The notes below the pieces were generated by a model. The model was not told the origin of the DNA. It did not search any database and saw nothing but the letters and a program-made list of their open reading frames with translations. A program made the translations under genes and the position numbers. From an uncultured Prevotellaceae bacterium (GTDB lineage Bacteria; Bacteroidota; Bacteroidia; Bacteroidales; Bacteroidaceae): a stretch of DNA of 64,000 nucleotides. How positions within the stretch are numbered: position 1 is the stretch's first letter; each line of letters opens with the position of its first letter. Location of the stretch: positions 86,316 to 150,315 of the forward strand of contig OMRP01000009.1 of NCBI GenBank assembly GCA_900313615.1, written 5' to 3'. Shown in pieces: positions 11,725 through 63,879 of this stretch.

Positions 11725-11738
11725 AACTTATTGTCAAA

Positions 11739-33945: not shown

Positions 33946-36603
33946 TTATTCGTTGGAGAAGTCTTCTTCAGAATCGTCCAAATCTATTGGGTCTTCTTCG
34001 GGGATTAATTCTACAGATTCGAGGGTGAGGGTGTATTCGTTGGTGGATGAAGTGGATGTGGAAGAACCACTTTGCATATAATTGTTCATATCGAAGCCTG
34101 TACCCCATTCGTGGTAAAGTTTTTTGTTTTTCTGTCCAGAGAGTACGACATACGGCTGAAGGCTTACACTTATCGCAGAAGCATAGCTCTTCAGCGTAAA
34201 GGTCAGGCTGAAATTAGCCTCTCCCGACTTTTTGCCAGATGTGTTTAAACTTGCAGCCTGTTCATTGGTATGATACTTTGTTTTTTCATTTGTATCAAAA
34301 TTGTCAACAAGTCCCCACTCATCAATTAACGACAGGCCATTGACATTTACAAATACTTTTATGTTGCAACAGTACCTTTCTTCTGGTTTTGCATTTTCAT
34401 CATACCATGCAGATGTCACCTTGAATTTTGTAATCGCTATTGAAGGATTGACTGAAGAGAAAGCTTTACCATTTTCATAATAAACTTTAGAAGTGCTCGT
34501 CTCGCCTATATATCTCCTGAAAAAAGGAACACAGGCATAGGTTTTTCCATCATTAAATTTTTGCGTCAACTTAGCTTCTATTGTCTTACCTGCCTTTGTA
34601 TCTTTTGTAATAAATGTATTACAATCCACGCTGTCAACCACATTTTTACCCAACATAACAATAAACCCAGGTTTATATTTTACGACACCAGCTTCAAATT
34701 CATTAAATCCAGTTTGAATACTACTTGCCATTCCTGTGTCAACCCCTATATCTTCAACTATGAAGGAAGCCTTATAAACTGGTTCATCATTTACCCATTC
34801 CACTCCAATTTTTAATTTTTTAGCTTTCGGAGTCATATAACGTTTAAAAAGAGGAAAGGTATGAATTTCCCAAGGACCTAACTCCCAAGAAAATTCTGTA
34901 TTTGGATGTTCCTCAGCTTCATGCTCTGTAGATTTTTCATATTTCTTTTTTTCTTTTTCCTTTTCTTCATCGGCTTTTCTCATAGACTCTTCTCGTCTTC
35001 GTTTTATATCTTCATAAGCTATTTTTGTCATTCCAGGATCGCTTTTCGGATTTCTTATATAATATGAATAAGATGGAGATACACGATCTGCGTATTCCAA
35101 CATGTGTATGATTCTTTCACTGGTATCATCAGGATTAAAAAACTCTTCTAAAAAAGCCCATTCTTCCAATGTACCATTATCTATATATTCCTGCTGTAAT
35201 GGGCCTAATATCTTTTTTACAACTTTGTTGAGGTTTGGGAATTTTTTTTCTATTTTGTTTCTAATTTTATTTAATATCTTCGTAATAAGCCTCCCTTTGG
35301 CTGATATGGCCAATGACCATAAAATTTCAAAGTCTCCCTGTACATAACTGTGATCCAAGAAATCAACGTGTCCTTGAAAATGAGGTTTTAAATATAATCT
35401 TCCATTAATAAAAACATCCCACTTTCCAAATCCGATATTAATCATGAGTTCCGGAAAATACAAGTCGCCACTAACACCTAATTCATCCCACCAAAAAGAG
35501 GCTGCACTTAATTTTCCCCCCCAATCTGTCACCTTCTTATCTAAGGTAACGATTCTTTTATTTCCAAACGGGATATTCAATCTGGGTTTTGCAATGAGAT
35601 TTAAATCAGCATCAATACCGATGCCTGCATTTAAATTTATATCAACCCCAGCTATTTTGATTTTATCCAGCATTTTGGATAACTTTTCGCTGTCTCTCAA
35701 GTAAGCCCATTTTGTAAATTCAGCCCCGAATTGCAAATCAAGAAAAAGGTCTAAATACCCCTCTCCTATATCTACATTCGCATGTAGATCGTCTGAACTG
35801 AATGGGTTCAAGTTAAAATCTCCTTTCGTTTCAGGAAACTTAAGGCCACCGCCAATTGATAAGATATCAAGTTTATCCGTATAACTAAGAGGATCTTCAT
35901 GTGGCATCTTAGGACCCTTAAGAAAGGGCTTAATATATTTATCCAAAATCCCTTGAACTGTCGAGAAATTCCAGGAATATGGTTTATCACCTTCCTCTTT
36001 TCGGGGACCGCCTTTGATATGATTAGGAGAAGAGGCTTCTTCCTCTGTCACCTCATCCTGATTGACCGTACCAAGTAAATTATCATCCTCATCGTAAACA
36101 TTAAACGCCCTGAAGTATTCGTTAAGGTCAGGATGGAGAGATACTTTAAATTCCTTATATGCCTCAAAAACATTTGTCGGAACGCCACTGACCTTGATAC
36201 AGTTATCCTCTTCACTTACATCATATATGAAATGGCACAAATAATCCCCAAAGAGTTCCTTGTTGTCACTTACCACCAGTTGCGTCTGTTTCGGCAGCAG
36301 GTCTTGGGGTACCGACTTATCAAAATAGATATACCGTAAGTTGCCCACCGTGTCCGTCCTGAGAATGTAGTTCGTCAACTCGTTGACAGCATTCAGATTC
36401 AAGGTGTTCTCATTGAGTTGATACGTCACGTCTCCGTATTCATACTTTTCCGTCACGGGGGCATCATAGCCGTTGCCGGTGTAGGTGGGCAGCGGGGATT
36501 CTTCAAGGAGGAGTTTGTCGTCGTCGATGAAGAGGGTGCAGGAGGTGAGGGCCAGGGTGAGAGTGGCCAAGAGGGTAGTTGATAGAGGGTTATTACTTTT
36601 CAT
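33946..36603 (-). CDS. Large lipoprotein of unknown function, last gene of the surface locus
   Basis: 885 residues. The signal ends TLALTSC (Cys22). A long beta-rich body follows (DILSIGGGLKFPETKGDF, YLDLFLDLQFGAEF, AGIGIDADLNLIAKPRLNI), then a helical region (LNKIRNKIEKKFPNLNK), a highly charged coiled segment near residues 540-565 (RRREESMRKADEEKEKEKKK), a second beta region and an acidic end (DLDDSEEDFSNE). I recognise no family. Codons in the middle (about 34.3-36.0 kb) are clearly more AT-rich than at either end of the gene or in its neighbours, suggesting a mosaic or acquired core. It follows the lipoprotein gene 36651-37556 by 47 bp and seems to close the operon. Confidence 0.7.
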   Translation of the reverse strand: MKSNNPLSTTLLATLTLALTSCTLFIDDDKLLLEESPLPTYTGNGYDAPVTEKYEYGDVTYQLNENTLNLNAVNELTNYILRTDTVGNLRYIYFDKSVPQDLLPKQTQLVVSDNKELFGDYLCHFIYDVSEEDNCIKVSGVPTNVFEAYKEFKVSLHPDLNEYFRAFNVYDEDDNLLGTVNQDEVTEEEASSPNHIKGGPRKEEGDKPYSWNFSTVQGILDKYIKPFLKGPKMPHEDPLSYTDKLDILSIGGGLKFPETKGDFNLNPFSSDDLHANVDIGEGYLDLFLDLQFGAEFTKWAYLRDSEKLSKMLDKIKIAGVDINLNAGIGIDADLNLIAKPRLNIPFGNKRIVTLDKKVTDWGGKLSAASFWWDELGVSGDLYFPELMINIGFGKWDVFINGRLYLKPHFQGHVDFLDHSYVQGDFEILWSLAISAKGRLITKILNKIRNKIEKKFPNLNKVVKKILGPLQQEYIDNGTLEEWAFLEEFFNPDDTSERIIHMLEYADRVSPSYSYYIRNPKSDPGMTKIAYEDIKRRREESMRKADEEKEKEKKKYEKSTEHEAEEHPNTEFSWELGPWEIHTFPLFKRYMTPKAKKLKIGVEWVNDEPVYKASFIVEDIGVDTGMASSIQTGFNEFEAGVVKYKPGFIVMLGKNVVDSVDCNTFITKDTKAGKTIEAKLTQKFNDGKTYACVPFFRRYIGETSTSKVYYENGKAFSSVNPSIAITKFKVTSAWYDENAKPEERYCCNIKVFVNVNGLSLIDEWGLVDNFDTNEKTKYHTNEQAASLNTSGKKSGEANFSLTFTLKSYASAISVSLQPYVVLSGQKNKKLYHEWGTGFDMNNYMQSGSSTSTSSTNEYTLTLESVELIPEEDPIDLDDSEEDFSNE

Positions 36604-36650
36604 AGCGGTGGAGGGTTGAGTGATGATTGACGAGTGACAAGCTAAGAGGG

Positions 36651-37556
36651 TTAGGGATAGGTGATTTCGATAACATTGTCGTCGTCATCGGTGGTGTCGT
36701 CGTAGCCGAAGTTGTAGAGGTCGTAGCCGAAGAAATACTCGCGGGCATTGTCATCGAGGACCAAGGGGTAGAGGTTGGAGAGTGTGCCGTGTGTCTCTCC
36801 GTCGAAGCGCAGGTGGCCGGGGAAAAGCTCGATGAGGGGCCTGCCCCGGTAGATACACATCAGGTCGATCCAGTCGCCGTACTCGAAGGGGCTCCAGATA
36901 CGCAGTTCCATATACGGCTTGCCGTTCGCCGAGCGCATCTTGCCGATGCCTCGCAGCTCATAGTCGTTGTAGGCGGCGATGATAAGCGAGTCCTCGTCGT
37001 CGGCGGTATATTTCTTCCCATGTATGGTGACGTCGGCATAGATCACCATGTCGTAAGGATAGTCCTTGGGATTGAGATACGCCTCGGGGATGACATTCAC
37101 CAGGCAGGAGTCCTGCAAGCGGTCGCTGACACTCATGGCGTAGGCCACGGTGAGCCCTTCGCTCACGCCGAGCACCGAGTCGTTGACCATGGTGGCTATG
37201 TCGTCGTTCTTGGTCTGCCACCATATCTCCTGGTTCGACACGTCGTCGGGAGCGAAAAGCACGGGGAGTGGGTATTTGTCGCCCACCATGATATTGACCA
37301 CCTTCTTGGGGAGCTTCATCTGATGTGCCGAGACAGGGGTGCCCTCCCAATACTCGCCACAGGAGGTGACGAGGAAAAGGAGGAAGAGGAAAAGGAAGCC
37401 TCCCCCTGCCCCCCTCCGAAGGAAGATCGTTTGCTTGTAGTGGTTAAAGCTTTTGACAAACCACCCCTGCCCCTCCTTTAAAAAAGGAGGGGAAAAGATA
37501 GACTCCTTTGGAAAAGAAAGGGAAAATGATAGCTTGTTGATTATTTTATGTTTCAT
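36651..37556 (-). CDS. Lipoprotein of the surface locus with a repeat-expanded signal region
   Basis: 301 residues from MKHKIINKLSFS at 37556. The lipobox LFLVTSC would place the acylated cysteine at residue 66, far later than normal, because the N-terminus includes SPPFLKEGQGWFVKSF and FLRRGAGGG, translated from spacer-type repeat DNA (CCCCTCC/GGAGGGG). The mature part starts GEYWEGTPVSAHQMKLPKK and contains an Ig/BIG2-like stretch (VVNIMVGDKYPLPVLFAP, GVSEGLTVAYAMSV). It ends in an acidic tail (DDTTDDDDNVIEITYP). No function is assigned. It lies between the fibronectin-type gene and the terminal lipoprotein gene. Whether the signal still works is uncertain. Confidence 0.65.
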   Translation of the reverse strand: MKHKIINKLSFSLSFPKESIFSPPFLKEGQGWFVKSFNHYKQTIFLRRGAGGGFLFLFLLFLVTSCGEYWEGTPVSAHQMKLPKKVVNIMVGDKYPLPVLFAPDDVSNQEIWWQTKNDDIATMVNDSVLGVSEGLTVAYAMSVSDRLQDSCLVNVIPEAYLNPKDYPYDMVIYADVTIHGKKYTADDEDSLIIAAYNDYELRGIGKMRSANGKPYMELRIWSPFEYGDWIDLMCIYRGRPLIELFPGHLRFDGETHGTLSNLYPLVLDDNAREYFFGYDLYNFGYDDTTDDDDNVIEITYP

Positions 37557-37688
37557 TTGCGTTCGTTTTTTCGGACACTGATTGGACTTTTTTTCACAGA
37601 AATTGCCAAAAATCAATCATGAATTGCCATGAATTGTAACTTTTCACTCGGAGTTCGGTGCCCTCCCTTGGGGAGGGACGGGGTGGGT

Positions 37689-39965
37689 TTACTCATCTCC
37701 CCGTTTCACGGTGATGGTGTTGGAGGGGTTACTCTGACGGCCGTCGCGCCACTGTATCATGATGTAGTATTCCGCCTGCTCGCCCTTGCGGAGGAGCTGG
37801 TCGGTATATGTCAGGTCCGTCTTGGGCACGCTGACCACGAAAGAGAATTTCTTCTCACCCTGTCCCTTGCGGTAGATGCAGTAGTAATAGTCGCCGTCGA
37901 GAGGCAGCTTGCCCGTTTCCCATGCCAGCTTCGTCTGCTGCTTGTCGCGGAAATAGTCACCGATGAGGCGCAGGTCCACCTTCCACACCTTCGGTCCTCG
38001 GTGGTACCAGCTCACCGCCAGTCCGTCGCCCGTGAAGGGCGACGAGTTATGCGACTCCACATAGTAGTAATAGCGTTTGTCGCGGTTGTAGGGCGGGTTG
38101 TCATCGATGGTGATGCGGTAGCCCGTGTTCTTCAGCGAGTCCTGCTCATAGCGTCCTATGACCTCCCACTGGCCGTCCTCTCCCAAGCGCCGGTATGCCA
38201 CGTGGTATCTCATATCCACGTCCATGCCCACTATCCACTCCATGTGCATGCCATCAGCATCGCTGTGTGCCGACGTGTCGAGGTGGGGCAGCGAGGGTGG
38301 CGACACATGGGGGCGCTGCACCTGCAGCCACGGACTCCACGGCCCGATGTTCGTGGAGTAATCCACCGCACGCACCTGGTAGTAGATATAGTCCTGGTTC
38401 ACGTCGAGAGCCAGCGAGTCGATGAACTCCGTGTCGCGGATACCCCCCTGGTTGCGTATGATGAACGTGTGCGTGGTGTCGTTGGCGTAGGCGATGTCGT
38501 AGTAGTCAATGTCATCGTCGGGGCAAGCGTTCCATTTCAGGATGGCATACGCCCACTTGCTCTGCTTCACAGTCAGCGAGTCGCCCTGCGGCAGCTGAAT
38601 GTTCACGCGGAGCGAGTCCGGCGCGTCGGGCGCCTTGTAGTCACGCAGTGCTATCTGCTGCACTAATGAGCGGCTCTCATTGCCCGTCTTGTCGTATGCC
38701 GACACATAGATGAATCCCGTTATCTTCCCCGTCATGTCAACGCTGTAGAGCGTGTCCGAGGGTGGTATCATCTCGTTGTTGAGCAGTTGCCACTCCTTGC
38801 CCGTCACCTTCGGGCTGTTGTAGTGTATGCAGTAGCCCTCCAGATCTTTCTCCATGGCCGGTTTCTCCCACACGATATGTGCGATGACACGAGCCATGGG
38901 ATCGCTGTCGTCGGGTCGTTCCAGGACGACGTATTTCAGTATGGGTGCCGTCGGCGGCTGTATGTCGCGCACCACGACGCGCCGTGCCGGCGACGGCTCG
39001 CTCAGGTCGGCGAAGGCATCGTAGCCCATGATGCGGTATTCGTAGATACCCAGGTCGGGCACCGAGTCGCCGATGAGTCGGTAGTCCTCTTTCTCCGGCT
39101 GTTCCACCATCGATAGGTAGGGCTTGTCGTTGATGCGCTGCCACCGTCCGTTGACGGACGTGCCGTCGAGCGTGCTCACCATGCGCCGTTCTATCTCGTA
39201 GCTGGAATGTTCACGGTCCCACCACCCCACGATGATATGGTTCGGTCCCGACAGCGAGTCCGTCATCTGTGGGTTGAAGGGCTGCGGGCTGAATCTGTTG
39301 TTCACCACCCCCTCTGCCACTCCCGGCTCGAATATCAGTCGTCCGCCGTTGTCCCACAGCGTGGGTTGGATGTAATAGTCGTATGTTGCCCCCGGTGTCA
39401 CGTCGCGGTCGGTGAAGCGTGCCGCCATGTCCTCCGCCAGGTCTTTGCGCCATTCCGCCACCACCATGGTGAAGGCGAAGGCGATGTCCTGCTCCGAGTT
39501 GTCTTCGAGCGTGCGTCCCATGCTACCTTGCGGTTCCTCCTTATAATTATGCGCATCGCCATAGAGCAGTCCCTGCGGAATGAGTGCCAGCGAGTCGGTG
39601 TCGGGATATTTCGCCCTGAAGCGTTCCAGGGATAGCGGCTTGAGACCGTAGGCCAGCGTGTCGATATGCAGTCCCGGCTGTCCGTCGCGTCTGACGCGGA
39701 GTATGTTCACGCCGAAGTCGCACAGGTATTTATACGATGCATAGTCCTCCGCCACCCACCGCAGCACGATGCTGTCGCCGTAGGTTCGTGTGAGCAGTCT
39801 TATCTTCGTGGTGACGAGAGCGTGCATCTCCGGCCTCGCCACCGTGTTGTGGGGTGTCTTTATCTTCGGCGACCCTGCATTGGTGTCGCTGCCCTGCGCC
39901 GCCGCCGTGAGGGAGAGGGCGAGGAGGATAATCAGACTAATATATTTATTATTCAATCTTACCAT
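37689..39965 (-). CDS. Exported fibronectin type III-like protein
   Basis: 758 residues from MVRLNNKYISLIILLALSLT at 39965, a good signal peptide ending LTAAAQ; an upstream ATG at 40079 would read into the giant gene. The body has several FN3-like modules with the repeated WxxxxDxxxxxYxI/YRV pattern (WWDREHSSYEIERRM, GIYEYRIMGYDAFADLSEP, ILKWNACPDDDIDYYDIAY, YIYYQVRAVDYSTNIGPWS). It begins 17 bp inside the 3' end of the giant gene, so the two are translationally coupled. In other Bacteroidota, giant TANFOR-type proteins commonly have an FN3 partner beside them; this is recalled knowledge. Probably a partner in the same surface structure. Confidence 0.75.
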   Translation of the reverse strand: MVRLNNKYISLIILLALSLTAAAQGSDTNAGSPKIKTPHNTVARPEMHALVTTKIRLLTRTYGDSIVLRWVAEDYASYKYLCDFGVNILRVRRDGQPGLHIDTLAYGLKPLSLERFRAKYPDTDSLALIPQGLLYGDAHNYKEEPQGSMGRTLEDNSEQDIAFAFTMVVAEWRKDLAEDMAARFTDRDVTPGATYDYYIQPTLWDNGGRLIFEPGVAEGVVNNRFSPQPFNPQMTDSLSGPNHIIVGWWDREHSSYEIERRMVSTLDGTSVNGRWQRINDKPYLSMVEQPEKEDYRLIGDSVPDLGIYEYRIMGYDAFADLSEPSPARRVVVRDIQPPTAPILKYVVLERPDDSDPMARVIAHIVWEKPAMEKDLEGYCIHYNSPKVTGKEWQLLNNEMIPPSDTLYSVDMTGKITGFIYVSAYDKTGNESRSLVQQIALRDYKAPDAPDSLRVNIQLPQGDSLTVKQSKWAYAILKWNACPDDDIDYYDIAYANDTTHTFIIRNQGGIRDTEFIDSLALDVNQDYIYYQVRAVDYSTNIGPWSPWLQVQRPHVSPPSLPHLDTSAHSDADGMHMEWIVGMDVDMRYHVAYRRLGEDGQWEVIGRYEQDSLKNTGYRITIDDNPPYNRDKRYYYYVESHNSSPFTGDGLAVSWYHRGPKVWKVDLRLIGDYFRDKQQTKLAWETGKLPLDGDYYYCIYRKGQGEKKFSFVVSVPKTDLTYTDQLLRKGEQAEYYIMIQWRDGRQSNPSNTITVKRGDE

Positions 39966-42900
39966 ATCCTTGGTATTTAAATGAGCCTGTTGTACCTTTT
40001 TTGAAACCGATTTTTGTAAAGTGTTTAATATATATTTCTGGATCGTTACTACTCTGAATGTCATACGGTATTGCCACAACTAATCCAGAAACATTAGCGA
40101 ACACTTGACTATATTTCGTCACCTTATCTGTAATGAACTCATCGACCACCATACTCTTTAAATTCAAACATGAAACAAACATCCATTCCATATTTGTAAC
40201 ATTCGAAGTATTGCCTTTAAACACCAAAGTTTCAAGATTCCTACAGTTATAGAACATGTATGACATATTCGTCACTTTACTGGTATTCCTATCGAATGTG
40301 AGGTTATTCAAACTGGTACAGTTATAGAACATGTGTGACATATCTGTCACATTCTTAGTGTCCCAAGTAGTAGTTCCAGCTTTAAACGCATCTACGAATT
40401 TCAGTTTTGTACAGCTTTCGAACATGTATGACATATCTGTTACATTGGCTGTTGATTTAGAGCATAGTAAACCACCAAATCTATCCAGGCTACTGCAACC
40501 ACTAAACATACTACGCATAGTGGTAGCACTTTCCGTATTGAGTTCGAAGTCAGAACCCAAATCCGAGAATGTCAGTTTCTTACAGTTTTTGAACATAGAC
40601 GACATGTCAGTCACCTTGCCTGTCTTAATGCCGCTCAGGTTGAGAGAAGTCAATGTTTCACATCCATCGAACATACTCTTCATATTGGTGACTTTGTCCG
40701 TTATCATCGTACTCAGGTTCAAAGAAGAGATTTTTTTACAATTATAGAACATAAAGGAAGTATTCGTTAGACTAACCGTATTGAAGGTTCCGAACGTTAT
40801 CGAAGTAAGACCTCTACACTCAGAGAACATACGTTCCGTGGTGGTCACCTTTCTGGGATCGAATGAACTGAGACTCAAGGAGCCAAGAGCACTACAACCC
40901 TGGAACATTCGTGACATTGTTGTTACTTCTCCAACATTGAACTTGCTCAAATTCAACGATTTCAATGAACTACACCCATTAAACATAGATGCCATTGATG
41001 TCACCTTGGACGTGTTCAAGTTCTCCATTCCTTGGATAGTGGTCAATGCAGAGCAATTAGCGAACCAATAACTGGTGGTCGTCGGCTGCATATCGGCAAA
41101 TGACTCATCGAACACCACAGTCTGAGGATTATAGAATGACCACACGGTGCCTGTTTTTCCACCAGATGTATAGACACCAGATTTCAACACATCATTGCCT
41201 TTCCATACCTTGGTTACTTTCATCCCATTGTACTTGTCACCTTCTTTGTACGGATATTTATACATGAACGTAAGTGTCTTGTTTCCATCCGTCCATACAA
41301 TCTGTGCAATCTGTGAACCCTCTACCACAATTCTACCTTTCGTATCTTCCACAAATCCCAGTTTATCCACAAAGGCTCTTCTGACGATTTTCTGTGTCTC
41401 TGCGTCAGGAGTCAGTATCTCAAGATCTTTGACATTAGAGAATGTAGAAGAGGTATTCGTCTTGTTGTAATGGTCAAGATTGAAGCCACTTCCCACTTTC
41501 ATTGATTTCAGTTTTTTACATTCTTCAAACGGATCGTTTATACTCTCCACTTTAGCGGTATTGAAATTCCTGATATCAAGTTCCGTCAATGCATTGCAAT
41601 ATCCGAACATATTATTCATGCTCGTTACTTCGGACGTATTAAATCCCGACACATCGATTGATTCTAATGAGCTACAACCATAGAACATATATGCCATCTT
41701 CGTAACCTTCTCAGTGTTGAAATGTGTCACATCCAACGATTTGAGATTACCAGTACCATTGAACATATAATTCATATTGGTTACCTCTGACGTATTCAGA
41801 TTCTCTATTCCTTCAATACTCTTCAGTGCATGTTTTCCGTAGAACCACCATGCCGTAGATTTAGGACGGACATCGGCAAATGACTTTTCAAATACCACCT
41901 TTTCACATTGCGCAATTCTCCATCCCGTCTCAGACGTGGTATTTGTATTCGTCACATTTGTTCCACTCCATACTTTGGTAATGGTCTGTCCTCCGTATGA
42001 GTCGCCCACGTGGTATTCAATGTCATTGATGAAATACAGCGTCTTGTTGCCTTCCGTCCAGATGACTTGTGCCACCTTCGACGGCTCACCATCGTAGAAT
42101 CTTCCTGTGACACCCTCGACGAAGCCCAGTTTCTGTGTGAAGTTCTGGCGAACATCCTCCATGTTTCCACCTTCCACGCATACAGCCATCCCGCTTACAT
42201 CCTTGAAGACAGGTACAGCACTTTCCATTCCATTTATGGAGATGAAGTCGGATGTCAGTCGCAGTTTTCTCAAAGAGGTACAACCAGCAAAGGTTCCAGC
42301 CCATTCATCTGTTATACCCCTGGTATCGAAGTTCCTCAAATCAAGCTCCGGTAGTTTCGAACAGTTTCTGAACATTATATAAATGCTCTTGCTATTCTTG
42401 GTATCAAATGATGACACATCAAGATTAGTCAGTGAAGAACAGCCATAGAACATACCCGCCATAATCGAGACGTTAGATGTGCAGAAGCTCCTCAAATCGA
42501 GAGACCGCAGTTTAGAACAGCCAGAGAACATATCCCACATTGTTGTCACATTAGATGTATTGAAAGTACTCACATCAAGACTCTCCAAATTTTTACAGCC
42601 TTCGAACATCTTTGCCATGTTCTTCACCTTTGACGTGTCAAAATTCCTCAAGTTGAGTGAGGTCAGTCCAGAATATGAGAACATTGATTGCATATTCTCC
42701 ACCATTGACGTGTTCAGGTTTTCCAACCCAGTTATGCTCTTAAGGCTCTCCATGTGGTCGAACCAGGAATCGGTACGTTCTACCTTCACGTCCTTGAACG
42801 AACTGTCGAACACCACCTTTTCAATCTTCTTATAGGTATCGTCCAAATTCAGTCGCCATTGCGGGAATTCTGCGTATATGTTCACATCGCTCCAAACATT

Positions 42901-53265: not shown

Positions 53266-53293
53266 TGAGGGATGAGGGTTTAGAGTTGAGGGT

Positions 53294-55051
53294 TTAGGGT
53301 TGAGGGTTATTCCCTTTTTTGGATTTTCGTTTGATGCTGAGGAGTGGGAAGGTGTAGTTGTAGTTGAGTGAGATGCTCACTTCGGTGGTACCCCGGCTGG
53401 AGCGGTCGTCGCTGATGTTGGAGTCAGTATATCTGTTGAAGCTGGCGTTGCAGGAGAAGACATGCACCTTCTTGAGCGTGTAGCTGGCGGTGAAGTATCC
53501 TCCCACGGAGAGCATCCGTTGCTGGTTGCGTATATCGTTGTAGCACATCGACACGGTGGCCGTAGTGTTGAGCTGCTTCTCCTTGAAGAACGACCGTCCT
53601 GTGGAGAGGGAGAGGACGTCGCTGGTGTAGCGTGTCTGGTAGCCGTCGCTCTGCTGGTGGCTGAACGACGAGTTGAACGACATCTCCCACGGCTTGACAT
53701 CGACATTGTAGCTGACACCGGCGGCGAGGGTGCGCACATCGTTCTGCTTGGTGGAGTATTTGTTGAGGTCGCGGTTTTCGGTGTAGCTTGCCGAGAGTGA
53801 TATGGCATGTCCGAGCATATCGCCGTCGATGGAATAGGACGGTGTGAGGTGGAGGGAGTGCATGATACGGTTGACGCGCGTCTGCTCATCGACATGTGCC
53901 GTGCCGTCGCTCTGCAGCTGGCGGTAGCCGCTGTAGCCCGCCGTGACGTGAAGGTTGGGCGTGATGGCCGACGAGGCGTTGGCGGAATAGACATATCCGC
54001 TCGTGGTGTAGAGCATGCTGTTGGTTATGTTGTCTGACTGGCCTGAGAAGGAGGCCGACAGTGCCACTTTCTTGAACAAGTTGGTAGAGAGGTTGATACC
54101 GAGGGCATGGTAGTTGTTGCTGGTGTAATAGATGCCGAGCGTGGAGTAGTCGGGCTGTACCATGCGGTAGAACACCGACGTGTTGAAGTTGGGCAGTGAG
54201 ATGTTCATGCTGATGTCGCCTGCTATGCGCATGAGCGACGAGTATTTGGCTTCGAAGACGGTGGACCATCTGTCGGCGGCGGGGTTCTCTATCTTCGGCG
54301 ACTCCGCATCGAGTGTGATGGCGGAGAAGGCGAGGTTGCCGCGCAGCGACAGCCACTTGGTGATGCCCAGTCCCGCCTTGACCGCCACGGCAGTGTTCTC
54401 CTGCGGGCGTAGCTGCTGCTGCCAGTATTCGTCGAGCGAGCCTACGCGGTCGAAGGCGCGGAGGAAGAATACGTCGATATAGTTACGTCCCGAGCCGTAA
54501 CCTGCCTTGATGCCCCACCCCCGGCGGCTGTACTGCGGCGAGCGTGCTGCGGGGTCGGTGGGGTCGTCGTTGACGGCATTGCGGAACTCGCCGTAGAACG
54601 CGCCGAAGCGCCATTTCTCAGAGTTATATTCCAGTCCGAAGCCGTTGAACGACATGCTCATGATGTAGGAGCTGAACGCCATGTTGGAACGTCCGAAGTG
54701 GGCGCGCCAGTTCTTATAGGTAGGGTCGATGTGGAAGGAGATGTGGGGGAAGCTCCACGAGGTGTTGTTGTTGCCGTAGTAGAACGCAAAGGGCATGGAT
54801 ATGCCATAGATCTGCACGTTGAGGTTGGCATAGAAGGTGTTGCTCCATGGCGAGCGGTATCCGCTGCCCACGGAGGAGAAATAGTAGGTGTTCTGTGTGC
54901 CTATGGCACCTGTGATGATGAGCGGGTCGCTCTTCGCTATGGTGGAGATGGTGTTGAGGCCGATGGTCTGTGCACCGATGTTTGTCGGTGCCAGTGTCAT
55001 CAGCACGGTGAGAGATGTCAGTGCCCGTAGTAATGATTTACCCATCATCAT
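53294..55051 (-). CDS. Outer-membrane beta-barrel protein of the surface locus
   Basis: 585 residues, starting MMMGKSLLRALTSLTVLM (any of the three Met codons is possible) with signal cleavage after IGAQ. From residue about 35 to the end the chain alternates polar and hydrophobic residues in 9-12 residue strands with aromatic girdles (YYFSSVGSGYRSPWSN, FAFYYGNNNTSWSFPHISF, VALSASFSGQSDN, TEVSISLNYNYTFPLLSI). This is the pattern of an outer-membrane barrel. It lies 28 bp upstream of the giant gene. Barrels encoded beside giant adhesins (SprF beside SprB) assist their export in flavobacteria; a similar chaperone or porter role here is by analogy only, and I see no PorP/SprF signature. Confidence 0.7.
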   Translation of the reverse strand: MMMGKSLLRALTSLTVLMTLAPTNIGAQTIGLNTISTIAKSDPLIITGAIGTQNTYYFSSVGSGYRSPWSNTFYANLNVQIYGISMPFAFYYGNNNTSWSFPHISFHIDPTYKNWRAHFGRSNMAFSSYIMSMSFNGFGLEYNSEKWRFGAFYGEFRNAVNDDPTDPAARSPQYSRRGWGIKAGYGSGRNYIDVFFLRAFDRVGSLDEYWQQQLRPQENTAVAVKAGLGITKWLSLRGNLAFSAITLDAESPKIENPAADRWSTVFEAKYSSLMRIAGDISMNISLPNFNTSVFYRMVQPDYSTLGIYYTSNNYHALGINLSTNLFKKVALSASFSGQSDNITNSMLYTTSGYVYSANASSAITPNLHVTAGYSGYRQLQSDGTAHVDEQTRVNRIMHSLHLTPSYSIDGDMLGHAISLSASYTENRDLNKYSTKQNDVRTLAAGVSYNVDVKPWEMSFNSSFSHQQSDGYQTRYTSDVLSLSTGRSFFKEKQLNTTATVSMCYNDIRNQQRMLSVGGYFTASYTLKKVHVFSCNASFNRYTDSNISDDRSSRGTTEVSISLNYNYTFPLLSIKRKSKKGNNPQP

Positions 55052-55092
55052 AGTGGTTTTGTAGAAATTAGGCTTTTTTATTATCCCGAATA

Positions 55093-55154: not shown

Positions 55155-55185
55155 ATACTCGTGATAAAAGATAATAGGACAAGTA

Positions 55186-58083
55186 TTATTTCCTAACAAC
55201 CTTGCGGACAGTACCGTCGGGCAGACGGACGATGTTGAGGCCACGCTGCAGGGTGTCGAGCTGGCGTCCGTTAGCATCGTAGATGGTGCCTTGGATGTCA
55301 GTTTCGACAGCAATCTCGGTGATGGCGGTGACGACCGTCGTGGTGAAGAGGCTCACAGGGTTGCTTACCGATCCGAGACGTGTCTGCGAGGTTACCGTCT
55401 GTGCGATGTCATAGTACTCGCCAGTATAGTTGTCGTAAAGTTTCAAGGTGACCTGCTCGCCGCCGTTGCCATGCACGGTGATGAATGCCAGGCCGTTGAT
55501 GAAGCGTCCCTCGCCACGGCACTCATCCTTGACGAATGCGCCGATGGAGAAGCGGTCGTCGTCGGTCACATCCTTGACGGTGGCAACCATGGTCATGTTC
55601 GAGGCAAACTGCGTGTGGTCGTACTGCCACGGGCTGGTGAAGTGACGCGGTGCGCCGTTGCTGCCGTTGCCGGCATCCTCGTCGCCCGGAGGCATTCCGC
55701 CATACTGTTCAAACGTCAGATCAAGGATAACCTCTTCATCATCCGTTGCGGGGTTGAAGACGAGGTAGCCCTCGCCTTTCTTGATGGCGGTAAGGTCGCC
55801 CACCCACTGTGTGCCATCCCACTCCGCCGAGCCGTCGGCCTTAGAGGCGATGACCAAACCCGTGGGTAGCGGAGCCCCTTCGTTACTGACAGCATTCTCC
55901 AGCAGGCGGTTGTAGAAGAAGGGGCTGCCTATCCAGTTCCATCCGGGGGCGAGTTCTTGCTGATAGAAGATGTCGTTATGACCGTTGTAGATATAGGAGG
56001 TCTGTGCCCCATTCATCTTCACCTTGTACATAACATCTTGTCCGAGGCCGTTGTCATACAACGTGCCGAAATAGCCCCATGACGGGTCGTTGATGAGCAG
56101 GTCTTGCCAAGTACGTACCTCTTCGAGGTTGTCGCCGAAGAAGTCCTCCATCTCCGACGGTTCATAGAGATTGCCGTAGGGGTTGCTCTTCCACTGCCAT
56201 CCGTTGGCGAAGTTCACCTTCATGGGCACTTCATACTCACTGTAATCCTCAAAGTCGGACGGGTCATAGAACATATAATGTCCGGGCAGGTTGGCAGTGA
56301 AGTCGTAGGTACCGTCGCCATTGTCAGTGATGCTATAGACCGCATCGCCCCATTCTGCAAACATATCGGGCGGATAGACGATGGGGGTGAACTCTTCCCA
56401 ATTGACATCGGCATCCGAGGGTACCGGTGTGAGGGTGACGGTAGCCTTCGTGGGGTCACTATAATCGGGTGTCACTGTGACACTGAAATATTCGAGTTCT
56501 GCACCGATGTTCACGGTGAAACTCTTTGGTGTGCCCCAAACGAGCGTACCACCGTCGTTATTGGTGTAGTCGTTCCATCCGAGGGTGACGGTGACGGTAG
56601 CGATACCTTTCTGTAACTCAGTGTTAGTGATGTTGACATCCCAACCAGCTTCCCCAAACGAACCGCTACCTGTTAGGACACCAGAGATGTCAATCTGTGC
56701 ATTATAGATACGCGACTCATCACCTATGATATTCTGAATGATCATCGGCTCCACTTCATCGTTAATATCCATGTTCTTGTCGATGGACAGGGGGTCTTCT
56801 GCGAAGGTCACCTCCTTGAGAGGATTGTAGAAAATGAAACGGATGTTTGCCGTATATCCTCCGTCGGCGGAAGTTACCGTAATGGTTCCATTTCCTGCCT
56901 CCTTGGCCACTACAGAAGTTCCACTGATAGTTACCTTGCTGGTCGCTGTGGAGGAGAAGGTATACTCTTGGTTCGTAGCGTCGTCGGGATTGATTACCAC
57001 ATGAGCAGCCAGGCGGTTGTAGATGTCATCGCCCACATTGGCCAAAATTCTGTCGGTGTCGAAGTCAATGCTTGTGACGGGTACAACGACGTTGATGGTG
57101 ATCCACTTGTTGACTGCGGGATAGACCTTCGTACCGCTTCTGTTGATGAAGTACGGACGTATCTGCGTAGTACCAGACTGAACGGGTTTCCACCCTTCAG
57201 CTGTCACAGAGATGACACCATCGTTCTTCAATTCCCAGTACACAATGTCGGTGGCATCTGAAGGTACGAGTTCGTATGCCTGTGCCGGATCCCATGTATT
57301 CTGCATGAAGCGTGTGAGCGTTGCTCCATCGTCCTTCTCCACCTCGAAGGTTTCGGTGACGATGTTGATGGCGGTGGCGTAGATGGACACGTCATAGTAG
57401 GCTTCAGCAAGGAAGTCTCCTTTTTCAGACCACAGGGTGTAGGTGCCATGACCTATTTCAACACCCGTCATCTCATTACCGTTAATTTCGGCACCAATAT
57501 TACCACCTCCTTCACTTATCAGATTTCCGTACTCATCATAGACATTGTCATTACCAGGCATCAATTCCCAATAGGTATTAAGGGGTAAGGTAGCATCGGC
57601 AGGTGTCAAGGTGAGGAAGTCGAGAAGGTTAACGGTTTCGCCCACTGCTATGGAAATGTCGGCCAGCGCGTAGCTGGTGGGTGCCTTGAGGGTAAGCGTG
57701 ACGAGATCGGAGGGATAGCCATACGTTCCCGTCAGCTGGAAGGTGATGGTCTCGCTGGGGGTGAGCACGTACTCGAGTTGCGTATCTTCATTATAAGCCC
57801 TGAACTCGATGGTCTTGCCTACGAGGTCTTCGTTACCGCGTGCGCGGATGAGGTAGAGCACATAGCCATTGTTGAGGGTCTGTGGCGTAGCCGCGCCGAT
57901 ACAGAGGTTATCGACGAAGGCACCTACCTCGTAGGAGGTGGCGGAGGCTCCCGTCTCGTTTGTGACCACCGTGGCGTAGATGACGGCATCACCCTGCGTG
58001 TAGGCGGACTCCGGTGTGTAGTGGTCGGCCCACGCTCCTGCGGAAATGAGCAGGAGGGAAAGGAGAGATAGTAGTTTTTTCAT
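55186..58083 (-). CDS. T9SS-exported surface protein with type A sorting tail (paralogue 2)
   Basis: 965 residues. Signal MKKLLSLLSLLLISAGAWA. Residues about 45-140 form a domain with YEVGAFVDNLCIGAA and TIEFRAYNEDTQLEY. Ig/BIG-type strands fill the middle. A C-terminal half with WQWKSNPYGNLYEPSEMED, NDPSWGYFGTLYDNGLGQD, WDGTQWVGDLTAIKKGEGY and FSIGAFVKDECRGEG follows. The last 40 residues (GTIYDANGRQLDTL, GLNIVRLPDGTVRKVVRK) are a textbook type A T9SS sorting domain, so the protein is exported across the outer membrane and anchored or released. It shares domain order with the 58138-60117 gene. The gene lies between that paralogue and the barrel gene. Confidence 0.82.
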   Translation of the reverse strand: MKKLLSLLSLLLISAGAWADHYTPESAYTQGDAVIYATVVTNETGASATSYEVGAFVDNLCIGAATPQTLNNGYVLYLIRARGNEDLVGKTIEFRAYNEDTQLEYVLTPSETITFQLTGTYGYPSDLVTLTLKAPTSYALADISIAVGETVNLLDFLTLTPADATLPLNTYWELMPGNDNVYDEYGNLISEGGGNIGAEINGNEMTGVEIGHGTYTLWSEKGDFLAEAYYDVSIYATAINIVTETFEVEKDDGATLTRFMQNTWDPAQAYELVPSDATDIVYWELKNDGVISVTAEGWKPVQSGTTQIRPYFINRSGTKVYPAVNKWITINVVVPVTSIDFDTDRILANVGDDIYNRLAAHVVINPDDATNQEYTFSSTATSKVTISGTSVVAKEAGNGTITVTSADGGYTANIRFIFYNPLKEVTFAEDPLSIDKNMDINDEVEPMIIQNIIGDESRIYNAQIDISGVLTGSGSFGEAGWDVNITNTELQKGIATVTVTLGWNDYTNNDGGTLVWGTPKSFTVNIGAELEYFSVTVTPDYSDPTKATVTLTPVPSDADVNWEEFTPIVYPPDMFAEWGDAVYSITDNGDGTYDFTANLPGHYMFYDPSDFEDYSEYEVPMKVNFANGWQWKSNPYGNLYEPSEMEDFFGDNLEEVRTWQDLLINDPSWGYFGTLYDNGLGQDVMYKVKMNGAQTSYIYNGHNDIFYQQELAPGWNWIGSPFFYNRLLENAVSNEGAPLPTGLVIASKADGSAEWDGTQWVGDLTAIKKGEGYLVFNPATDDEEVILDLTFEQYGGMPPGDEDAGNGSNGAPRHFTSPWQYDHTQFASNMTMVATVKDVTDDDRFSIGAFVKDECRGEGRFINGLAFITVHGNGGEQVTLKLYDNYTGEYYDIAQTVTSQTRLGSVSNPVSLFTTTVVTAITEIAVETDIQGTIYDANGRQLDTLQRGLNIVRLPDGTVRKVVRK

Positions 58084-58137
58084 TGTTAGTGAGGGTTTTT
58101 ATTAGGTTTTACGTTATTACGAAAGGGACTCATTTTT

Positions 58138-60117
58138 TTATTTCAGAATTTTGACGGGGGGCCTTCCGGGCTGTCGGACGATGAGGATGCCAGGATGGGT
58201 GGCGTTGACGCGTCGGCCCAGAAGGTCGTAGGTGTTGACGTGTTGAGGGCTGAGGGCTGAAGCATCGTCGGAGTGGATGTCGGTGATGCCCGTAGTCATG
58301 GTGGAGGCATGGAGGGTGACGGGCGATGTGAGGCTGCCGAGGCGTGTCTGGCAGGAGAGTGTCTCATCAAGGGGATACTGTGCGCCCGTCAGCTCATGGC
58401 AGAGGATGAAAGAGACCGTCTCGCCGTAGCGTGCATGTACGGTGATGAAGAACCGTCCACCTGTATTTCCGCCGTCGGCATAGCCACCGGCACCTCGGCA
58501 CTCCCCATTGACGAAGGCACCGATGGAATAGTCGTGCGGGGCAATGAGTCCTTCGACGATGGCCACCATGGTCATATTGTCGCGGTAAGAGGCGGCATCA
58601 TATTCCCACGAACCGTGGTTGACACCGCTGGCGGGCTGTTCATGCCCCTGTGCCATCAGTTTCTCATCGGCGAAGGTAAGGGTATAGGCATCGTCGGAGG
58701 GGTTATAACAGAGCAGGCTCTCGCCGGCGGGGAGCACCTGGAGGTCGCCCACCCACTGTGTACCGTCCCACTCCGCTGAACCGCGTTCCTTGGAGATGAT
58801 GACGGTGCTCGGCGACAGTGCGGAGCCGTCGATGGCATTACAGAGCAGGCGGTCGTACCAATAGGGCGAGGGGAGCCATGTCCATGAACCGTCGAGGACG
58901 ACGGACAGGCCGTCGGCGAACAGGGCATTGTAGAGCCGTCCCGTTACCGGCCCGTCGTTCATGAGCACCTTATAGGCGACATTACGGTGCAGTCCCTCCT
59001 CCAGGAGGGTGCCGAAATAGCCCCATTCGGGGTCGTTGTAGAGCAGGTGGTCCTGCGTACGTATCTCCGTGAGGGCATCGCCGCCATATACCTGCTGGAA
59101 GTTGTCGCCGAGTACATCGGCGAAGGCGTTGGTCTTCCACTGCCATCCCTCATGCAGGGCTACCGGCGCGGCGGCATCGAAGCCCGTGAAGACATTGCCC
59201 CGGCTGTCGTAGAGAGGCAACGTGCCGAGGTTGAGGATGACATCAATCCATCCAGGGTAGAGCGGTGTGACCTCGAACTGAAGGGGCTCGGTGGAGAGCA
59301 GCTGCCACTCCGCCGCCTCCCAGCCACTGACCTGACCGATGAAGTCGAGCGAGAGGCTCTCGGCAGCAAAGCGTGCATCGGCGGGGACGGGCGTGAGGGT
59401 CATCACCGCCGACTCACCCGCCACGGGTGGCGTGAAATCGACGGTGAAGCCATCGAGTCCCACGGCGGTGATGACCTCGAGTGTTGCCGAAGCGAACACC
59501 TTATTATATATTAAAAGGTTATAGGAAGTATGCCCTTGGTTAGTACCCTTGAGCGTGTTGCCGTCGATGAGGGCTATGTCAGCATCGACGCTCCACGACA
59601 TGCCGTTGGGCAGGGTGCTGTCGTCGGGTGTAACGACGAGATAGTCGGTGAGGCTCACCTGCTGTCCGACGAGGATGCTGACAGGGTTGAGGGTGATGGC
59701 CGACGGTGCGGCAAAGCGCAGGGGGACGGTCAGCGACGGTGTTCCCTCGCTCTCGCCGGTGAAGGTCACCGTACGGTCGGGCTGGAGGGTGAAGTCGAGG
59801 CGGAGCGTCTTGTCGTAGATGCGGAATTCGATGGCCTTGCCTTTGTCTTCCTCGCGGTCGCCATACACACGCATGAGGAAGAAATACTTACCGTCGGTGC
59901 CCCGGGTGGGAACAGCCACGGCGCGGCACTCGTCGTCGATGAAGGCGGCCACGGTGTAGCGGTCGGAGCCGTCGTCGAGCGCCGTGCTGCGGTTCCAGAC
60001 GGAAGCATAGACCACCGTCTCGTCGTTATATTGATGATCATCAACGGGTGTCCAAGGCTGGGAAAAGCCTTGAAATACAGTCAATAGGCAGGTTAGTAGC
60101 AGTAAGTATTTTCGCAT
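58138..60117 (-). CDS. T9SS-exported surface protein with type A sorting tail (paralogue 1)
   Basis: 659 residues from MRKYLLLLTCLLTVFQGFSQ at 60117; the frame to 60150 overlaps the promoter and is rejected. Domains match the 55186-58083 paralogue: YTVAAFIDDECRAVAVPT with IEFRIYDKTLRLDFTLQP, then WQWKTNAFADVLGDN, NDPEWGYFGTLLEEGLHRN, WDGTQWVGDLQVLPAGESL and YSIGAFVNGECRGAG. The tail is a type A sorting domain (NTYDLLGRRVNATHPGILIV, PPVKILK). It is shorter because the BIG-like middle part is reduced. First gene of the seven-gene surface locus, 122 bp after the AraC-type regulator. Confidence 0.82.
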   Translation of the reverse strand: MRKYLLLLTCLLTVFQGFSQPWTPVDDHQYNDETVVYASVWNRSTALDDGSDRYTVAAFIDDECRAVAVPTRGTDGKYFFLMRVYGDREEDKGKAIEFRIYDKTLRLDFTLQPDRTVTFTGESEGTPSLTVPLRFAAPSAITLNPVSILVGQQVSLTDYLVVTPDDSTLPNGMSWSVDADIALIDGNTLKGTNQGHTSYNLLIYNKVFASATLEVITAVGLDGFTVDFTPPVAGESAVMTLTPVPADARFAAESLSLDFIGQVSGWEAAEWQLLSTEPLQFEVTPLYPGWIDVILNLGTLPLYDSRGNVFTGFDAAAPVALHEGWQWKTNAFADVLGDNFQQVYGGDALTEIRTQDHLLYNDPEWGYFGTLLEEGLHRNVAYKVLMNDGPVTGRLYNALFADGLSVVLDGSWTWLPSPYWYDRLLCNAIDGSALSPSTVIISKERGSAEWDGTQWVGDLQVLPAGESLLCYNPSDDAYTLTFADEKLMAQGHEQPASGVNHGSWEYDAASYRDNMTMVAIVEGLIAPHDYSIGAFVNGECRGAGGYADGGNTGGRFFITVHARYGETVSFILCHELTGAQYPLDETLSCQTRLGSLTSPVTLHASTMTTGITDIHSDDASALSPQHVNTYDLLGRRVNATHPGILIVRQPGRPPVKILK

Positions 60118-60147
60118 GGTAAGTATGACCTTTTTAAGTATGATTTG

Positions 60148-60155
60148 CAAATTTA
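60148..60155 (-). promoter_or_regulatory. -7 box of the surface-locus operon
   Basis: TAAATTTG on the minus strand, 31 bp ahead of the 60117 start. The -33 position reads AATG rather than TTTG, which would fit a promoter needing an activator such as the AraC-type proteins encoded upstream. Confidence 0.45.
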
Positions 60156-60238
60156 AGTATTTTTCACCAAGTAGACATTGTCGTTTTCATGCGCCTATTT
60201 GTCAAAATAGAGCGGATTTAGAGGTCGGAGGAGTGAGG

Positions 60239-60673
60239 TTAGTCTGAGGGGTGGTGGCGCTGGTCACTTTTGGCGGCCTCGCGTTCCACCTGCTGCTGGA
60301 TGAAAGCGGCGAGGTCGGAGGAATCGTGGCTGTGGCTGTTGGCGTACTGCGTGGGCGACATTCCTTCATGGTTACGGAAGACGTGGCTAAAATGAGCAGC
60401 ATCGGCAAAACCACAACGACGGGCCACCTCGGTGACTGAGACCACTGGATATTTTGCCAACAGACGCTTAGACTCGTCGAGACGAGTGCGCATGACGAAT
60501 GCCGATACGGGTAGACCGGTAGCGATTTTGACACGACGATTGAGCTGGGAGGAACTGAGCGCAAGTTCAGCCGCGAGGGTTTTCACGTCGACTTCGCCTC
60601 GAGACATGTTCTCGAAGATATAACCTATTAGGCGTTCAAAAAGTTGTTTATCGCTGGTACCTTTAATACTCAT
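60239..60673 (-). CDS. Stand-alone AraC-type helix-turn-helix regulator
   Basis: 144 residues, essentially only a DNA-binding domain. Residues about 15-110 hold both helix-turn-helix units of the AraC family: VKTLAAELALSSSQLNRRVK and VVSVTEVARRCGFADAAHFS, then HVFRNHEGMSPTQYA. There is no ligand-binding or receiver domain. It closely resembles the output domain of the neighbouring hybrid kinase (VATEMGMSRQQLGRKLRAVA-like and ISLRCGFADNAHLTHVFQR), so it may be a duplicated output module. It is encoded directly upstream of the seven-gene surface locus. The control of that locus is inferred from position. Confidence 0.85.
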   Translation of the reverse strand: MSIKGTSDKQLFERLIGYIFENMSRGEVDVKTLAAELALSSSQLNRRVKIATGLPVSAFVMRTRLDESKRLLAKYPVVSVTEVARRCGFADAAHFSHVFRNHEGMSPTQYANSHSHDSSDLAAFIQQQVEREAAKSDQRHHPSD

Positions 60674-61059: not shown

Positions 61060-63879
61060 TTATTCACTCTTCACTTTTAACTTATACTGTGAGGGGGTAA
61101 TACCGAAGCGACGCTGGAAGACATGGGTGAGATGGGCATTGTCGGCGAAACCGCAACGGAGGGAGATGTCGAGGAGGGTGAGCTGGGGCTGCTCCTGAAG
61201 CAGATGACAGACTTCCTGAAGACGGAGATTGAGGATGTAGTCGGACGGTGTGGTGTCGGCCACGGCACGTAGCTTGCGTCCGAGTTGCTGACGACTCATA
61301 CCCATCTCCTTGGCTACTGTGGCGGCATCAACCCGTTGCTTCGGCATCAAAAGAAGGATAATGTCGTCGAGTTTACGGAGGAAACGCTCGGCGTAGGTGG
61401 AAGAGGGATGAGGGTTGAGGGCGGCGAATTTGCGCTGGAGAGTGCGTCGTGATTCGAGGAGTTTGGTGATGCGGAGGAGCAATTCCTCTGCCATGAAGGG
61501 TTTGTAGAGGTAAGCATCGGCACCTGCCTCTATGCCTTGCAGACGGTCTCTGTCCTCGACACGCGCCGTGACAATGATGACAGGGATATGGTTGGTGAGT
61601 TCGGATTGGCGTATGCGCCGGCACAGTTCGAGTCCGTCGATGTCGGGCATCATGACGTCGGTAACGATAAGATCAGGAATGATTTGTTCGGCCTTACAGA
61701 AGCCCTCGGCTCCGTCGGCTGCGTAGAAGACAGCATACTGGGAGTTGAGTATTTTTCCTATATACGTTGCCATGTCGGCATTATCCTCAACCACAAGAAT
61801 ACGCGTCCGCCCATCGTCGTCAAAATCGTCTTCAGGGTCTTTCTCAGACCGTGTGACGACATCTGCCACCATTTCGGGGTAAGTAACAATTTCCCAAGAT
61901 AAGCCTTCAGCGGACATCTCGTGTTCACCTTCAAGCATTTTCGTCTTGAGCGGAAGGGAAACGGTGAATACTGTCTCCTGGCCCGGTCGGCTGTGCACTT
62001 CTACCCTACCCTCCAAGGCTTTGGCCAACTGATTGACAAGAGCCAGTCCCACGCCCGTTCCCCCATGGGTATTGTTGGCACCCTGGTAAAACGGCTCGAA
62101 CACGTGGTCGAGATCCTCAGGCAAAATACCCTCGCCATGGTCGGCAATACTAACGCTGACTGTATCAATCGATGCACTGAGCGACACGGTGACGACATCG
62201 TCATCCGGGGAGAATTTGAGAGCATTTGAAAGAAGGTTGCCCACCATCTTTTGCATGTAGTCGGGCACGAAGAAAGTGCGAACAGAAGTCTTGGGACTAT
62301 GGTATTGTAGATTGATACCCTTCATATTTGCCATCGGCCTGTACTGGTCGACAATCTGACTGACAAACATCGCCACGTCACCATCCAACCATGAAAGAGA
62401 GACACCAGATAGCGACACTTTAGAGATGTCGAGCAGTTGGTTGACCAATGTGAGCAGAGACCGCCCGTTGCGCTCGATAGCCGCCAACGGTTCTTTTATC
62501 CGCTCCCCTTCACTGGACTGCTGCAACTGCTGCGTAGTACCAAGTATGATGGTTAGCGGTGTACGGAGTTCATGGGTGACATTGGTGAAGAATGACTCGC
62601 GAGCACGCTGCAACTGACGTACCGCCCGCTGAGTACGCGTCTTCATGCGATTGAGGTAACTCAACACGACAATGACCGCCAACAGGAGGAGCAGTCCAGC
62701 CAATGAAGCGAAGAGAATCAAGCGTTTCTGACGATCACTCTGCTCGTTGGCCTCCTGCAATTCGTCGTTGTGCATCGTAGCATTGGCCTTGCTCAAGGCC
62801 TCGTGCATATCAGCATAGTGGAGCGAGTCCATCATTGTAGAATAACGACGCATGGCCGCCAGAGCCTCGCGGGGGTTGTCAGGTTCGAGGGCCTCAGCCA
62901 GCGACCGATGGTCGTAGCATGAGGAGCGTGTGTTGCCCAGTTCCTCCTGCAAGGCAATAGCCCGCCGTAAAACGGGTACTGCCTCGCTGTTGCGCTTCAT
63001 GTCAAGCAAGTTGAAGGCCACATATTCGAGGCTGATGGCAAGGAGGTTACGATCGACGACCTTCATACCCTCGACCGTACGAACGGCCTCCTGCGACAGG
63101 GCGAGAGCCTGCTGTAAATCGCCCTTGCGGTTGTAAGCATAACTCAGTTGGGAGAGATGGTTGACCACGCCGGCATCATAACCGATGGCACGCGCCGCCT
63201 CAACGGCTCGACGACCATAGTCTATGGCCTTGTCAGGTTCCTTAGCTACGCTGTAGACCTCGCAAGCGATGCCCAGGTAGTTATGGGTGTTTTGGTCGGA
63301 GCCTGTCAGTTGATCGGTTTCAATGGCCTTGCCGACGAAATGTTTCGCCTCGTCGATGTAACCTAGGGAGAGATCAATAATGGCCAGATAGTTGCAGGCT
63401 CGTGCTAATGGCATCATGAGCCGGTGTTGTCTACTGAACTGCTCCGCTTCCATCTCTGCCTTGGCAGCCTCGGTGTTGCGGCTGGTTTTGAAGAGACAAT
63501 AACCACGGTCACAGAGCAGCGTGGCATAGTATTCGGGATTATTACGCGCAGCCAATGGCAATGACTTGTCGATGTAACCGAGGCTTTCCTTGAAATAGCT
63601 TTTGTTATAATAGAAGCGCTCAGCGGCAAGCCATACGAGGAAGTCGAGGCTGTCGTTGGGCATATTGTTGTCAATGGTCTGATTGAGGTGAATGAGGTTG
63701 TCGTCACCGGCGTTGAGGAGTATAATTTGCCGTGCCACTTGTACCTTTTCTTTCTTGGAGCTTTTCTCGTAGACGTTAAGCAGTGAGTCGGCAACATCAA
63801 CGGGTGTCTGTGCCGCTGGAAGTGTCAAGACTTGGGTGAATAAGAAAAAGAGAACAATGCTAATTCGTATTCTTTTCAT
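61060..63879 (-). CDS. Hybrid two-component regulator: TPR sensor, histidine kinase, receiver, AraC output
   Basis: 939 residues. Signal peptide (to about LPAAQ), periplasmic TPR-like helical repeats at residues about 30-380 (YNRKGDLQQALALSQEAV, AIDYGRRAVEAARAIG), one membrane span at about 386-409 (LILFASLAGLLLLLAVIVVL), HisKA with phospho-acceptor His436 (FFTNVTHELRTPLTIILG), HATPase (NLLSNALKFSPDD, GGTGVGLALVNQL), a receiver with its Asp in VTDVMMPDIDG near residue 741, and a C-terminal AraC domain (about 845-939). All phosphotransfer residues are intact. Most hybrid regulators of glycan loci sense with beta-propellers; a TPR sensor is the rarer layout. It is upstream of the AraC gene and the surface locus on the same strand. 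Confidence 0.92.
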   Translation of the reverse strand: MKRIRISIVLFFLFTQVLTLPAAQTPVDVADSLLNVYEKSSKKEKVQVARQIILLNAGDDNLIHLNQTIDNNMPNDSLDFLVWLAAERFYYNKSYFKESLGYIDKSLPLAARNNPEYYATLLCDRGYCLFKTSRNTEAAKAEMEAEQFSRQHRLMMPLARACNYLAIIDLSLGYIDEAKHFVGKAIETDQLTGSDQNTHNYLGIACEVYSVAKEPDKAIDYGRRAVEAARAIGYDAGVVNHLSQLSYAYNRKGDLQQALALSQEAVRTVEGMKVVDRNLLAISLEYVAFNLLDMKRNSEAVPVLRRAIALQEELGNTRSSCYDHRSLAEALEPDNPREALAAMRRYSTMMDSLHYADMHEALSKANATMHNDELQEANEQSDRQKRLILFASLAGLLLLLAVIVVLSYLNRMKTRTQRAVRQLQRARESFFTNVTHELRTPLTIILGTTQQLQQSSEGERIKEPLAAIERNGRSLLTLVNQLLDISKVSLSGVSLSWLDGDVAMFVSQIVDQYRPMANMKGINLQYHSPKTSVRTFFVPDYMQKMVGNLLSNALKFSPDDDVVTVSLSASIDTVSVSIADHGEGILPEDLDHVFEPFYQGANNTHGGTGVGLALVNQLAKALEGRVEVHSRPGQETVFTVSLPLKTKMLEGEHEMSAEGLSWEIVTYPEMVADVVTRSEKDPEDDFDDDGRTRILVVEDNADMATYIGKILNSQYAVFYAADGAEGFCKAEQIIPDLIVTDVMMPDIDGLELCRRIRQSELTNHIPVIIVTARVEDRDRLQGIEAGADAYLYKPFMAEELLLRITKLLESRRTLQRKFAALNPHPSSTYAERFLRKLDDIILLLMPKQRVDAATVAKEMGMSRQQLGRKLRAVADTTPSDYILNLRLQEVCHLLQEQPQLTLLDISLRCGFADNAHLTHVFQRRFGITPSQYKLKVKSE

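Follow-up and report, generated by a model that had tools for sequence, protein, structure and literature searches.

A conserved seven-gene block around a TANFOR-related giant protein in Prevotella: a candidate surface-display locus with a predicted outer-membrane barrel

The window analysed here (64,000 nucleotides from an uncultured Prevotellaceae bacterium, contig OMRP01000009.1) contains a block of seven minus-strand genes that is a real, conserved unit. It encodes a 4438-residue giant protein, a predicted outer-membrane beta-barrel, an FN3-array protein, two paralogous, putatively secreted proteins (CTD1 and CTD2) and two putative lipoproteins. We believe, with a probability of about one half, that this block is a dedicated surface-display locus, in which the barrel would export or anchor the giant, the other products would act as accessories around it, and a PARCEL repeat array at the giant's end would form a binding tip.

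All of the predicted open reading frames were recovered on one strand at the expected positions (Table 1), and the predicted intergenic distances of −17 to 134 bp hold: the FN3 gene, when read from its likely ATG, overlaps the giant's gene by 17 bases, and the widest gap is 134. Signal peptides and lipoboxes were assigned by eye, without a predictor. The hybrid kinase and the separate AraC-type protein expected upstream on the same strand are likewise present (the domains of the kinase being those found by Pfam); the contig (150315 bases) stops at the window end just past the kinase, which limits the upstream view to that gene.

Table 1. Positions in the window of the seven-gene block, of the parts of the giant and of the upstream regulators
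Feature	Positions	Strand	Description
CTD1	58138..60150	-	670 aa; signal peptide by eye; short T9SS-like C-terminal tail; likely ATG start near 60117
CTD2	55186..58083	-	965 aa; CTD1 paralogue; Big_2 domain; short T9SS-like tail
Outer-membrane beta-barrel (predicted)	53294..55051	-	585 aa; 26 strands in AlphaFold model
Giant	39949..53265	-	4438 aa; N-terminus TANFOR-homologous by profile comparison, beta platform and core, mid region, PARCEL tail
Giant, residues 1-2810	44836..53265	-	GC 0.548; portion common to tail-less relatives
Giant core, residues 1641-1920	47506..48345	-	motif WYAxGQxYA
Giant, residues 2811-4438	39949..44835	-	DUF285/PARCEL repeat tail; GC 0.424; one clade
FN3-array protein	37689..40079	-	796 aa by ORF; likely ATG start 39965
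Lipoprotein A	36651..37616	-	lipobox LVTSC by eye; Big_2 below cut-off
Lipoprotein B	33946..36603	-	885 aa; lipobox LALTSC by eye; no known domain
AraC-type regulator	60239..60673	-	144 aa; upstream of block
Hybrid two-component kinase	61060..63879	-	TPR, HisKA, HATPase, receiver and AraC-type domains

Six loci of the genus have upstream sequence. A kinase homologue adjoins two of them (on the same strand in L027 and on the opposite strand in L029); of the remaining four, L022 has an AraC protein alone, L025 a weak 381-aa match, and L024 and L031 neither. The regulators are therefore present in the window, but their position is poorly conserved and they are no conserved part of the set. Elsewhere in the window, a tRNA-Pro(cgg) gene is followed by a 165-bp tandem array of 2.2 copies (33334-33754) that repeats the tRNA 3' end and downstream sequence, and resembles either a duplicated terminator or the remains of former attachment sites. 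A PD40/DUF6057 protein pair that occurs twice in tandem (2162-8823) and a SusD/SusC pair (9724-15008) were also noted.

A search among relatives found the barrel in 20 of 149 genomes, the genome of the window included, so the distribution of the locus is patchy. Around these barrels the gene order recurs within the genus; some other families keep giant, barrel and FN3 protein together but arrange them differently. Searching the species collection with the giant core yielded 519 confirmed stretches; the analysis used the best 80 (60 nearer, L041-L100, and 20 farther), and neighbours were counted only in loci whose contig extends far enough. Among the nearer loci of these best 80, all 50 testable ones have the barrel upstream of the giant and all 43 testable ones a CTD1/CTD2 relative before the barrel; downstream of the giant follow the FN3 protein (50 of 51), lipoprotein A (32 of 32) and lipoprotein B (30 of 31). 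The farther loci of the same best 80 have the barrel upstream in 15 of 16 and the FN3 protein directly downstream in 8 of 17; with the profiles used, no CTD protein (0 of 14) and neither lipoprotein (0 of 7 each) was found in them.

We also drew a sample of 395 genomes evenly across the phylum, in which 12 genomes matched the curated TANFOR model, 143 the barrel profile, 42 the core (in 29 genera) and 212 the FN3 profile; the barrel and FN3 profiles also pick up wider families. The barrel is near 41 of the 46 core places and the FN3 protein near 43, with both within 20 kb at 39. Of the 15 places that match the TANFOR model, 10 (in 9 of the 12 genomes) have the barrel within 20 kb and 10 the FN3 protein, and the 100 barrel rows entered have the core within that distance in 41 cases and the FN3 protein in 68. 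Barrel, giant core and FN3 protein thus recur together across the phylum, with an order that differs between groups and partners that are kept. Had the homologues been scattered adhesins, they should lie mostly apart; the opposite was found, and the original prediction of a single surface assembly is well supported by a gene set that stays together both in relatives and in the phylum sample.

Several individual loci depart from the usual form. In L032 (genome G066) one reading frame of 990 residues (1796-4768) joins approximately residues 1-784 of the giant to the end of the FN3 protein, as if the middle had been deleted. Two single MAGs each hold three core-locus contigs (RGIG4794: L070, L072 and L080; RGIG3793: L044, L073 and L075), and in RGIG3793 one giant has a PARCEL tail and two do not. 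In Flavobacterium loci (L109-L113, L115-L117 and L120) the barrel reading frame, at ∼818 aa, exceeds the barrel profile and is preceded by a 447-aa gene.

The giant comprises a TANFOR-homologous region (to about residue 333), an amphipathic beta platform with the conserved core (905-1920), a mid region (to about 2810) and the PARCEL tail. Comparison by hhalign of an alignment of giant N-termini (24 rows) with one of TANFOR N-termini (7 rows, headed by the BaCT protein of Flavobacterium hydatis) gave a probability of 99.8% and an E-value of 4.3e-29 over 261 columns, and the giant's N-terminus is homologous to TANFOR domains. The curated TANFOR model TIGR02542 does not match the window giant and, at E up to 1, finds 5 of the set's 37 N-termini; the TANFOR-like character proposed earlier is visible only in profile-profile comparison. 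The LRR modules of the same proposal are the 26-residue DUF285/PARCEL repeats: Pfam and NCBIfam scans placed DUF285/PARCEL and other LRR-type models in the giant, all in its last third.

TANFOR proteins have been described as polymorphic toxins of Bacteroidetes (Jana, Salomon, Bosis 2020, PMC7073777). According to that paper, BaCT of F. hydatis is a DNase, C-termini without known domains yielded new toxin domains in the class, and T9SS cargo and FN3 domains are over-represented near TANFOR genes. The window giant has no toxin domain recognisable by Pfam or NCBIfam, as had been said of it at the outset; the conclusion that no domain, toxin domains included, points to a different role overlooked that TANFOR is a published toxin class. 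Because the test for a toxin domain was negative, we treat the giant as a TANFOR relative and do not file it as a polymorphic toxin. It resembles that class in its homologous N-terminus, in being a large, presumably exported protein without a CTD, and in its adjoining FN3 and T9SS-cargo genes (the latter judged from the tails of relatives). It differs in lacking a toxin domain and being missed by the curated model, in its form (one chain of about 2800 residues that joins TANFOR region and platform, plus the PARCEL tail), and in the conserved barrel of its gene set.

The neighbourhoods of TANFOR genes elsewhere bear on that last point. The F. hydatis TANFOR reading frame (1841 residues, with both published BaCT residues, E1724 and K1726) shares contig and strand with the barrel and core-protein genes, an FN3 gene, several small genes and one that encodes 1754 residues ending in a CTD-like stretch. 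In four other genomes (L129, L130, L131 and L132) the barrel is directly upstream of a TANFOR-type gene; the order in L139 is giant, FN3, barrel, and L135 has TANFOR and FN3 genes without a nearby barrel. The trio of barrel, core protein and FN3 protein is therefore a frequent, not a universal, TANFOR companion, and in Prevotella TANFOR region and platform are joined in one chain. A word search of the main text of PMC7073777 did not find the word 'barrel'.

The barrel has no Pfam match, and its sequence found no relative in the PDB at E 0.1. Its AlphaFold model, in which we counted 26 strands from the strand list, aligns with MtrB over 450 residues at ∼11% identity. What it shares with MtrB and with chaperone-usher pores is, on the predicted structure, a very large barrel; the likeness seen is one of fold only. 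We consider the barrel to be best read as the giant's dedicated outer-membrane partner, putatively in direct contact with it, and as a constant neighbour it could export the giant.

The remaining products are less easily assigned. The FN3 protein has an fn3 hit below cut-off, and a profile of nine relatives matches titin chains (E 5e-28). Whole-protein scans gave no meaningful family match for CTD1, the barrel or lipoprotein B. The prediction of two paralogous proteins with type A T9SS tails held in regard to their paralogy; neither whole protein matches TIGR04183 or PF18962, and none of the TIGR04183 places of the genome is on the window's contig. Among the 56 tails of the set (2 from the window and 54 from relatives), TIGR04183 matches 11 and PF18962 matches 8. 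The tail consensus of CTD1 and CTD2 resembles the short CTDs reported for T9SS cargo of Prevotella intermedia (Ye et al. 2025, PMC11969387), and both proteins appear to carry short T9SS signals; the window giant differs from such cargo in having no recognisable CTD. Ye et al. also report a predicted cargo protein with a DUF285 domain. In many loci the lipoprotein A profile picks up the CTD proteins as well, which suggests a shared domain. A REP-like palindrome lies within the N-terminal coding part of lipoprotein A (37469-37532), and a similar translated stretch seems to be present in the giant's signal region in L026.

The tail of the giant (residues ∼2811-4438) consists of 26-residue repeats that match Pfam DUF285 (PF03382; E 1.3e-148, 11 stretches) and TIGR02167 (PARCEL; E 9.1e-146, 26 stretches), and its GC content is 0.424 versus 0.548 in the rest of the giant. 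Among the 60 nearer giants (of the best 80 of 519), 17 match the window tail and 35 show no match to it; the other 8 are cut or frameshifted. In a midpoint-rooted tree of the core region, the window, the 17 tail-matching giants and 4 of the cut or frameshifted rows form one branch with 100/100 support (the five label changes counted by the tool stem from cut or frameshifted rows taken as a separate label), and the tail is thus confined to one clade. Because tail-less giants stop shortly after the mid region, near the point where the tail starts, the array looks like an addition to the giant's end; PARCEL repeats occur somewhere in 51 of 100 genomes of the genus, which are a possible source. 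The repeats match both models over the tail, as in the PARCEL/DUF285 surface proteins of Roske et al. (2010, PMC2996958), but here they have been added at the end of a giant that is otherwise conserved. The dyad symmetry of coding DNA reported for PARCEL proteins was not seen in the window tail (0 near-palindromes of 24 nt versus a codon-shuffled mean of 0.16, in a coarse test without power). The tail is probably a binding module of the adhesin type.

Three other explanations of the locus deserve consideration. The giant might belong to a TANFOR polymorphic-toxin system with an undescribed toxin domain, and harm competing bacteria, with one of the lipoproteins as immunity protein. The homologous N-terminus, the single block that the F. 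hydatis BaCT gene forms with FN3, barrel and core genes, and the published record of new toxins from C-termini without known domains (PMC7073777) all speak for this; we nonetheless think it unlikely, given the lack of a toxin domain in the window giant, the single weak Ntox23 match (E 0.0038) that was the only toxin family Pfam found in the C-termini of 40 tail-less relatives, and the conservation of the genes after the giant, unlike a variable toxin/immunity pair. That the block is an operon whose surface proteins are independent and share no structure seems to us very improbable: all products do look like envelope proteins and order differs between families, but co-occurrence of barrel, core protein and FN3 protein at most core places of the phylum sample and the near-constant order in L041-L100 argue against it.

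The third explanation is that the giant leaves the cell through the T9SS by an unrecognised signal, a route that is hypothesis only in PMC7073777 for TANFOR proteins, with the barrel serving solely as anchor. It would fit the CTD-protein neighbours at all testable nearer loci, and the title of PMC9143113 claims that PorP-like proteins anchor type B CTD cargo. SprA is present in the window's own genome, and in 42 of 42 core-bearing genomes versus 59 of 80 core-negative genomes over cut-off (p = 7e-5); however, 17 of the 20 negatives without any SprA match come from one family (f77), and without that family p is 0.15. The contrast is mostly that one family's effect, and T9SS export is therefore compatible with the data and no more. 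No CTD family was found on the window giant (Pfam, NCBIfam) or on the tails of 40 relatives (Pfam), and we regard this route as rather doubtful, if somewhat less so than a toxin system.

We prefer a dedicated surface-display locus. The barrel is assigned as export or anchor partner on the ground that the giant, despite its signal peptide, lacks a recognisable T9SS tail. As outer-membrane partner, it would either export the giant or hold it in the outer membrane, where the giant may dock through its amphipathic beta platform and core; the FN3-array protein would be a structural partner, CTD1 and CTD2 would use the cell's T9SS to reach the surface, with lipoproteins A and B as lipid-anchored accessories. 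In the Prevotella subclade the giant's end would be an acquired DUF285/PARCEL array, most likely an adhesin-type binding tip, whereas some TANFOR relatives end in toxins.

A broader and more tentative idea, which we hold to be possible though not probable, is that barrel, TANFOR/platform protein and FN3 array make up a hitherto unrecognised machine for export and display at the outer membrane of Bacteroidota, separate from the T9SS channel, with one chassis whose ends are interchangeable (toxins in the case of Flavobacterium and, in gut Prevotella, binding arrays of the DUF285/PARCEL type). In the open-licence PMC literature we found no paper describing the barrel together with TANFOR proteins, and no account of the 'TANFOR domain' besides PMC7073777. 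If the idea is true, the machine would be the delivery apparatus that the TANFOR toxin class still lacks: the exit of these proteins from the cell is a hypothesis in PMC7073777, and the barrel, which many Bacteroidota have beside the TANFOR/platform protein and an FN3 array, offers a concrete, testable candidate. The Prevotella branch, whose carrier ends in a repeat array and lacks a recognisable toxin, suggests a role in adhesion or recognition within gut communities.
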